Origin: Vreelandella piezotolerans
GTDB lineage: Bacteria > Pseudomonadota > Gammaproteobacteria > Pseudomonadales > Halomonadaceae
Assembly: GCF_012427705.1 (NCBI RefSeq)
Contig: NZ_CP048602.1
Coordinates: 1,426,001 to 1,490,000, forward strand
Direction of reading: 5' to 3'
DNA: 64,000 nt
Positions 42,090-46,577 of the stretch are shown piece by piece. The notes below the pieces were generated by a model. That model made no database searches. It was not told the DNA's origin and saw nothing but the letters and a program-made list of their open reading frames with translations. A program made the translations under genes and the position numbers. Numbering within the stretch: position 1 is the stretch's first letter; each line of letters opens with the position of its first letter.

Positions 42090-42196
42090 CTCACGCTCCC
42101 GGCCGCATCAGAATGGACGTCACTCGTGGCGCCCGCATCAGAGTCATTGCCCAGTATACGCCTGCGCCCGCCGAGACGAAAATTTTAACCTTTTGC

Positions 42197-42222
42197 GAAC
42201 TTTTTCCCTGAGCAGTGTCTGA
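42197..42222 (+). promoter_or_regulatory. Sigma-E/AlgU-like promoter of candidate sRNA
   Basis: GAACTT (42197-42202) and TCTGA (42218-42222) separated by 15 bases, matching the extracytoplasmic-stress sigma factor consensus GAACTT-N15/16-TCTGA. The predicted start is 7-9 bases downstream, near 42230. Confidence 0.5.
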
Positions 42223-42229
42223 GTGTGTA

Positions 42230-42325
42230 CAGGCAACATAGCGATGGCAGTCGCTAATCGTGTTGTTCTGGCTATTGTTTTCGATCCCTTGCTTCCGCTG
42301 CTTATCCCAAGCAGCGGTTTTTTTT
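42230..42325 (+). ncRNA. Candidate small RNA A, about 95 nt
   Basis: Predicted from a sigma-E-like promoter and an orphan intrinsic terminator on the strand opposite both neighbours. Parts in order: a 6-base stem TAGCGA/TCGCTA with hexaloop at 42239-42256; a U-rich unpaired stretch (42257-42294) ending in GATCCCTTGCTT (42283-42294); terminator stem CCGCTGCTT/AAGCAGCGG with loop ATCCC and eight T. A U-rich single-stranded segment before a terminator with a long U tail is the usual layout of Hfq-bound sRNAs. The 12-base segment recurs in candidate sRNA B at 46534-46545. No match to a named sRNA is claimed. Confidence 0.5.
42295..42325 (+). terminator. Strong intrinsic terminator of candidate sRNA A
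   Basis: Perfect 9-base stem CCGCTGCTT / AAGCAGCGG, loop ATCCC, followed by eight T (42318-42325). It points along the plus strand where no protein gene precedes it. Confidence 0.9.
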
Positions 42326-42368: not shown

Positions 42369-42776
42369 TCAATGACGACGAATCGTGAGTAAGGCCATGA
42401 GAACGTCGCGACGTGTGACGATCCCTACCAAGCGATGCTGCTCGACGACGGGGTAAATCTTCGGTTTGGCGCCGAGCATCTCTTGCGCGAGGTCGGTCAC
42501 GCTTTTGTTGGGGGTGGTGGTCAGCACGTCTTGACGCATCAGCTCTCTCACCAGAGGGGCTTCGTGGTCATGGTAAATGCTGTCGAGTACGCGGCCCAAG
42601 ACATCTTGTTCGGAGATGAAGCCGATCAAACGGTCCGACATATCGACGACCGGTGCCCCCGGCAGGCGATGTAACGCAAGCCCTTGGGCAAGCGTCGTGA
42701 TGGATGTCTCTCCTGAGACGCGGTAGCAGTCACGAGACATGATGTCTCTAACGGTATCCGGAATTTTTTTGTTCAT
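42369..42776 (-). CDS. CBS domain-containing protein
   Basis: 135 residues comprising a pair of CBS motifs: TVRDIMSRDCYRVSGETSIT with GAPVVDMSDRLIGFISEQDV, and LVRELMRQDVLTTTPNKSVT with YPVVEQHRLVGIVTRRDVLM. Such stand-alone Bateman modules bind adenosine nucleotides and sense energy or ionic state. The ATG at 42776 follows GAGGAG by 7 bases; the extended start at 42791 would bury that site. It is divergent from the YqaE-type gene, with 142 bases between them. Confidence 0.92.
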   Translation of the reverse strand: MNKKIPDTVRDIMSRDCYRVSGETSITTLAQGLALHRLPGAPVVDMSDRLIGFISEQDVLGRVLDSIYHDHEAPLVRELMRQDVLTTTPNKSVTDLAQEMLGAKPKIYPVVEQHRLVGIVTRRDVLMALLTIRRH

Positions 42777-42918
42777 GAGAGCACTCCTCATCGTGATCGA
42801 CAGGCCGCGGCCGATTCTCTTACTGTAGGTGATTTAACTCACTCTGCGCTGCCCCCATACTGTCTCTATTCAACGCTTTGCTTTTTCAAATCAGCCTCGA
42901 ATGCTGTGAGGAGTCGTG

Positions 42919-46488: not shown

Positions 46489-46515
46489 GAACTAACCCTC
46501 TTGCCGGATATCAGA
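46489..46515 (+). promoter_or_regulatory. Sigma-E-like promoter of candidate sRNA B
   Basis: GAACT (46489-46493), 17 bases, TCAGAGT (46511-46517). The arrangement parallels GAACT-N16-TCTGAGT at 42197-42224. The -10 differs from the TCTGA consensus at one base, so the call is weaker than for candidate A. Confidence 0.35.
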
Positions 46516-46521
46516 GTAAGT

Positions 46522-46577
46522 GTTCCCTTGAATGATCCCTTGCTTTTATCCGGCGGCCCCCTCCGCCGGATTTTTTT
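46522..46577 (+). ncRNA. Candidate small RNA B, about 55 nt
   Basis: Predicted transcript from the sigma-E-like promoter to a strong terminator. It contains CCCTTG twice, the second within GATCCCTTGCTT (46534-46545), identical to the segment before the terminator of candidate A. The alternative is that the segment is only the 3' untranslated end of the nadK-phosphoesterase message; the two are not exclusive, since an sRNA can be made from a 3' end. Confidence 0.4.
46548..46577 (+). terminator. Strong intrinsic terminator
   Basis: Perfect 9-base stem ATCCGGCGG / CCGCCGGAT, loop of six, followed by a run of seven T (46571-46577). It lies 110 bases past the phosphoesterase stop and serves that operon and/or candidate sRNA B. 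Confidence 0.92.

Follow-up and report, generated by a model that had tools for sequence, protein, structure and literature searches.

Within the window, the stretch of 64,000 nucleotides that was analysed, a short intergenic region separates an open reading frame of 119 aa from a CBS-domain gene. Both frames are read on the minus strand, as an earlier note on this DNA had described, and the elements which that note had pointed out on the plus strand are all present where it placed them: a GAACTT-N15-TCTGA promoter-like element, a region for an RNA of about 95 bases, and a 9-bp terminator with eight T (Table 1). We refer to the predicted RNA as sRNA A. The stem of its terminator occupies 42295-42317, with 9 pairs, and is followed by the T run, TTTTTTTT. 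The product of the 119-aa frame has no Pfam match. A further conserved block (42140-42190; AGTATACGC ... GACGAAAATTTT) lies between that gene and sRNA A; the gene's divergent promoter and an A/T-rich upstream element of sRNA A may both be located in it.

Table 1. Positions of sRNA A, sRNA B and their parts in the window
Feature	Position	Strand	Remark
ORF, 119 aa	41730..42089	-	flanks sRNA A
Sigma-E/ECF-type promoter of sRNA A	42197..42222	+	GAACTT (42197-42202), 15-nt spacer, TCTGA (42218-42222)
sRNA A, ~97 nt	42229..42325	+	start inferred from the -10 element, end set at the T run
Pairing site 1 of sRNA A	42240..42257	+	5' hairpin region, complementary to porin mRNA codons 5-10
Pairing site 2 of sRNA A	42268..42286	+	CUGGCUAUUGUUUUCGAUC, complementary to porin leader -35 to -17
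Unpaired core of sRNA A	42283..42294	+	GATCCCTTGCTT, common to sRNA B, conserved in genus
Intrinsic terminator of sRNA A	42295..42325	+	covariation in its stem
CBS-domain ORF	42369..42791	-	flanks sRNA A
Promoter-like element of sRNA B	46489..46515	+	GAACTA, 16-nt spacer, TCAGA
sRNA B (inferred ends)	46522..46577	+	UUCCCUUGAAUGAUCCCUUGCUU and terminator

By BLAST, the sRNA A element was found in 59 of 97 relatives, comprising 59 of the 61 that belong to the same genus and none of the 36 from other families; among named records, promoter and core were seen in Vreelandella, Halomonas and Halovibrio (42 stretches). The earlier note had proposed a covariance model of Halomonadaceae as a check. Such a model (R1), built from 51 of the 59 aligned loci with the 8 most divergent omitted, recovered sRNA A in 203 of 275 Halomonadaceae genomes and 15 of 24 genera, including 80 of 82 genomes of its own genus (a count of rows). 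When 293 genomes drawn from the order were searched there were nine matches, six of them in the family; the three weak matches outside it (E 4.5e-4 to 9e-3) were rejected, as none lies beside a CBS or 119-aa gene. When 27 loci from other genera were inspected, the CBS gene adjoined sRNA A in 25, and the remaining two had the 119-aa and AraC genes. The weak R1 matches among these loci thus share a gene neighbourhood, which provides evidence that does not depend on the model. A few members of the genus carry insertions inside sRNA A (loci L052-L054, L057, and L055 in genome G035).

The predicted fold of sRNA A is more stable than those of its shuffles (z = -3.71), and five of its 21 pairs show two-sided changes; 40 cells with such changes were counted, whereas shuffles gave 12.3 and 0 of 500 shuffles scored as high. 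All five covarying pairs lie in the terminator stem, and the two 5' helices show one-sided changes only. The sequence of the 5' hairpin is the most conserved part of the RNA across the family, which suggests that its letters matter beyond its fold.

As for the promoter, the match taken by itself is at chance level, and it is conservation that raises the case above chance. The pattern GAACTTN{14,18}TCNNA occurs once in the window, against 1.28 expected from the shuffled window, and GAACTTN{15,16}TCTGA has a single occurrence genome-wide, at sRNA A, with one also found in the backwards control. Within the genus, a sigma-E-type promoter is conserved with the gene: the spacer is 15 in 59/59 loci, the -35 is GAACTT in 58 and GAACTA in one, and the -10 is TCTGA or TCAGA in 55 of the 59. 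Among the 27 loci from other genera only nine retain an exact GAACTT-N15-TC; in the others the -35 drifts, in several genera to GAATCATT, GATAGTTT or GAGAATTT, and a GTCA-like -10 stays. The sigma factor itself, RpoE (TIGR02939), scored above the family cut-off in each of ten genomes tested, and by eye GGAACTT (GGAACTA in one) with GTCAG, at a longer spacing, lies upstream of rpoE in the six genus members among them. The assignment to sigma-E/AlgU made in the earlier note is plausible on indirect grounds, namely the promoter fixed in the genus, the presence of RpoE and the similar elements before rpoE, and less so in other genera, given the 9/27 exact matches. From these patterns, we consider sigma-E control of sRNA A likely.

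The second feature in Table 1, the sRNA-like unit B (sRNA B), sits 4.3 kb from sRNA A between a metallophosphatase-like gene and a rhomboid gene. The genome has just two perfect copies of GATCCCTTGCTT, one in sRNA A and one in sRNA B (46534-46545). Of the named-record loci long enough to include B, 12 of 12 have it, 4.2-4.5 kb from sRNA A and with a spacer of 16, and it was present at the same distance in five other genomes searched for the core (one with a mismatch); when 20 other loci were read for 9.5 kb, it was seen in five (G124, G155, G156, G287 and G007). Its range takes in the genus and some other genera. Used as a 12-base antisense seed in six genomes with one mismatch allowed, the core led to sRNA B and found few gene starts, none of which was seen to recur between genomes, and it was set aside in this form; the matches were ribE in the genome under study (G000), and a lamB (11/12 in its leader) and one other gene in G022. 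The two CCCUUG motifs of sRNA B would fit CAAGGGA ribosome-binding sites, which is a hint at shared targets of this type. The contexts of CAAGGGA with ATG were read for 41 of the 42 occurrences in G000, for 34 in G022 and for 13 in G005, and the rpoE leader was added to these. The genes in G000 include, among unrelated ones, a porin-family gene, two TonB-receptor genes, a curlin-repeat gene and the rpoE leader, and only argB (3/3 genomes), serS and a flagellar gene recur between genomes. Upstream of rpoE in genus members there is a CCCAAGGGACGCTATG leader with a short reading frame (L213, the rpoE locus of G000, and L210-L215; CAAGGAA in L214). By its letters this leader could pair with the CCCUUG motif of sRNAs A and B, and a feedback loop could result.

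There were no matches to Rfam 15 in the window at gathering scores, and the best sub-threshold match of sRNA A, to ncS025, reached 20.9 bits (46 needed; E 0.09). In the excerpts of the one paper collection searched, Halomonas sRNAs appear only as synthetic sRNA tools (including PMC13101641). The earlier note had also likened the RNA to ErsA of Pseudomonas, whose gene adjoins polA. We examined the region downstream of polA in G000, G038, G130, G094 and 30 genomes of other families, and rejected orthology, as the position differs: sRNA A lies beside the CBS gene, and nothing sRNA-like follows polA in G000 or G038, where there is only a terminator-like hairpin and another gene. By a simple pattern, a GAACTT-type element lies no more than 420 nt after polA in 6 of the 30 other-family genomes (in one of them 392 nt away); one was also seen by eye in G094. 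In this survey, two of the 30 loci ended without readable sequence beyond polA, and for others the frame finder may have been wrong. These polA-linked sequences have no obvious kinship with sRNA A. In several other families of the Pseudomonadales, sigma-E-like promoters followed by terminator-like hairpins were observed close behind polA, the position of ErsA (L138, L176, L178, L180 and L199). What stands is a likeness by kind: ErsA is AlgU-dependent and represses the porin oprD with Hfq (PMC5819304 and PMC7264166, excerpts). Because it has no Rfam family at gathering score and occupies a position other than the polA site, sRNA A is by these tests a new family, although its functional kind is a known one, and the Rfam result together with the distribution of R1 matches agrees with the suggestion in the earlier note of an sRNA gene that cannot be recognised as any named one.

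A candidate target was noticed while many gene leaders were being inspected. The protein concerned is, in the genome under study, a Porin_4/Porin_1 protein whose related PDB chains are porins such as OmpF, and codons 5-10 of its gene (TTA GCG ACT GCT ATC) have their reverse complement in the sRNA A hairpin, GCGATAGCAGTCGCTAA, with 17 consecutive pairs of which three are G-U. The second motif pairs with the porin leader GATCGAAACAGTAAGC at -35 to -17 through 18 pairs, interrupted by a single bulged base in either RNA. The two sites are 9-10 nt apart in sRNA A and ~30 nt apart in the porin mRNA; the pairing parts of the sRNA follow the order of the antisense strand at the porin start, from which the Shine-Dalgarno/AUG segment is missing. 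Cofolding of the two RNAs gave -64.4 kcal/mol, compared with -17.1 and -12.3 kcal/mol apart, a gain of ~35. Complementarity to an outer-membrane protein mRNA near its start codon is therefore what is found here, and the guess in the earlier note that outer-membrane protein synthesis would be lowered has gained a specific candidate. Second porin loci (of the L332/L378 type), at first thought to be the target, were discarded as they have no long pairing. One of these, the second tandem porin gene of the genome under study (L378, G000:C1:2518602-2519090), has an open frame of only 205 aa, compared with ~345 aa in most relatives, and may be broken.

Porin matches were obtained in 25 of 28 genomes searched, the other three (G013, G029 and G124) having sRNA A and no porin match at E 1e-10. 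Among the fetched loci, 19 genomes had the right porin, and of the 380 pairs possible at their coding sites 346 are standard, including 314 Watson-Crick pairs. Six genomes fetched later as a test gave 112 of 120 pairs at the coding site (18-19 of 20 in each), and all six contain the leader motif GATCGAAA. For 16 of the 19 genomes the best ungapped complementarity between sRNA A and its own porin has no equal in 894,750 background positions; for G000 and G287 it is equalled at one background place each, and in G007, whose pairing has drifted, 14 background places do as well. There are also matched changes at the coding site. In G040, G130 and G156, where GCC replaces GCT in the porin, sRNA A has G replacing A, and in G035, which stays complementary to its own porin despite the insertion in sRNA A, a porin GTC is met by C. 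Own pairs exceeded permuted pairs when Watson-Crick pairs only were scored (p = 0.018), but not when G-U was counted (p = 0.36).

The leader site is weaker than the coding site: its mean scores were 34.8 for own pairs, 33.0 for swapped pairs and 22.9 for shuffled ones, and the lowest-scoring own pair is equalled or passed by 6.5% of shuffles. The clearest co-change at this site is in G287, where the own score is 43.0 compared with a mean of 27.6 for other sRNAs on its porin; the sRNA A of G287 also scores up to 42.5 on the porins of other genomes. On the porin side, synonymous conservation was highest, among 54 windows, in the three that cover codons 4-8, 5-9 and 6-10; start-of-gene codon bias is a possible second cause. 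With RNAduplex the own porin scored -66.8, one of 125 ORF leaders in the window was lower, and some of 2,317 plain windows reached -77.5; we set these energies aside because GC-rich windows score equally well. By the gapped score, two of 5,098 windows do at least as well as the own pair, and none of 5,098 does so for the genus consensus. Duplex energy and the gapped score of the own sRNA thus leave the porin not fully set apart.

Three other explanations have to be weighed against these observations. It might be that sRNA A is a genuine sRNA with the porin as its target and that another ECF sigma factor, or a housekeeping promoter, drives it in place of sigma-E. The pattern is expected about once per window by chance and the -35 differs in several other genera, as this explanation would allow, but a spacing fixed in 59/59 genus loci and the similar elements before rpoE and sRNA B make it rather improbable. 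Slightly less probable again is that sRNA A, while still an envelope-stress sRNA, uses its exposed CCCUUG core as the seed on CAAGGGA Shine-Dalgarno regions of several outer-membrane protein mRNAs, the porin pairing being minor. Such a role would account for a core that is nearly invariant in the genus and recurs in sRNA B, and it finds candidate targets in the outer-membrane proteins among the CAAGGGA genes of G000 and in the 11/12 match of the G022 lamB leader. However, CAAGGGA resembles a Shine-Dalgarno sequence, so that matches of this sort are expected, and few of the genes recur between genomes; moreover, outside the genus sRNA A is mostly without CCCUUG, and it is the hairpin and UUCGAUC that are kept.

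We regard as very improbable that there is no sRNA at all and that the conserved element acts in cis, for example as the terminator of the CBS gene or as the upstream region of the 119-aa gene. Conservation does extend upstream of 42197, into the block where, judged by eye, the 119-aa gene may have its divergent promoter. The T run, however, occurs only on the plus strand and so cannot end CBS transcripts, and the conserved unit begins with the promoter, finishes with the terminator and has a trans match in a porin mRNA.

The reading we prefer, to which we would assign a probability of about 80%, is that sRNA A is a trans-acting sRNA of the Halomonadaceae which, from an envelope-stress promoter of the sigma-E type, pairs with a porin mRNA at two sites and blocks its translation. 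Envelope stress would lead to synthesis of sRNA A, most likely from the sigma-E (RpoE/AlgU)-type promoter, and the first half of the RNA would pair with porin codons 5-10 and its middle with the leader from -35 to -17. Binding at both sites would form a helix on either side of the porin Shine-Dalgarno sequence and start codon and hold these in the intervening loop, such that translation would be blocked and the porin mRNA probably exposed to decay. The computations show the anatomy of the gene, its conservation and neighbours, the covarying terminator, the complementarity at two sites and the constraint on synonymous positions of the target; we infer the transcription of sRNA A, its sigma-E dependence, its use of Hfq and the direction of the effect, repression.

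Several known sRNAs offer points of comparison. RybB pairs through its free 5' end, whereas the pairing part of sRNA A is within a hairpin. MicF pairs with the ompF mRNA and is not known to be driven by sigma-E. Both MicF (PMC9988348, excerpt) and sRNA A have a long antisense-like match to the start region of a porin mRNA, although their location and sequence differ. MicA and RybB are stress sRNAs that lower porin mRNAs (PMC1804206, excerpt), and sRNA A would resemble them as porin-lowering stress sRNAs, siblings sharing a task, although it has no Rfam match and its pairing is longer and at two sites. VrrA of Vibrio is sigma-E-dependent, with a promoter match conserved among its homologues, and pairs with the ompA coding region to block ribosome binding (PMC2628432, excerpt); it is like sRNA A in combining a sigma-E promoter match with coding-region pairing to an outer-membrane protein mRNA. 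The likeness is by kind, the target being ompA rather than a Porin_4 gene, and sigma-E dependence, shown for VrrA, is predicted for sRNA A. A wider and more doubtful proposal, which we put forward tentatively, is that sRNA A acts as a two-site clamp, having originated as antisense to the gene it now targets, and that, with its sibling sRNA B, it forms a two-sRNA envelope-stress module specific to Halomonadaceae, in which A would handle one porin while the CCCUUG seed, common to both, would act on other outer-membrane proteins and on the rpoE leader.

If our preferred reading of a two-site porin repressor is true, sRNA A would be a native envelope-stress sRNA with a ready-to-test target, in a family that industrial biotechnology makes use of. 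A highly expressed porin promoter of H. bluephagenesis is the main source of Halomonas promoter libraries (review, PMC12164125, excerpt); should that porin prove to be the target, any construct retaining its leader and first codons could come under the control of sRNA A. The pair would also be a clear case in which the most conserved part of an sRNA mirrors synonymous sites of its target, a relationship that could be tested by compensating mutations.
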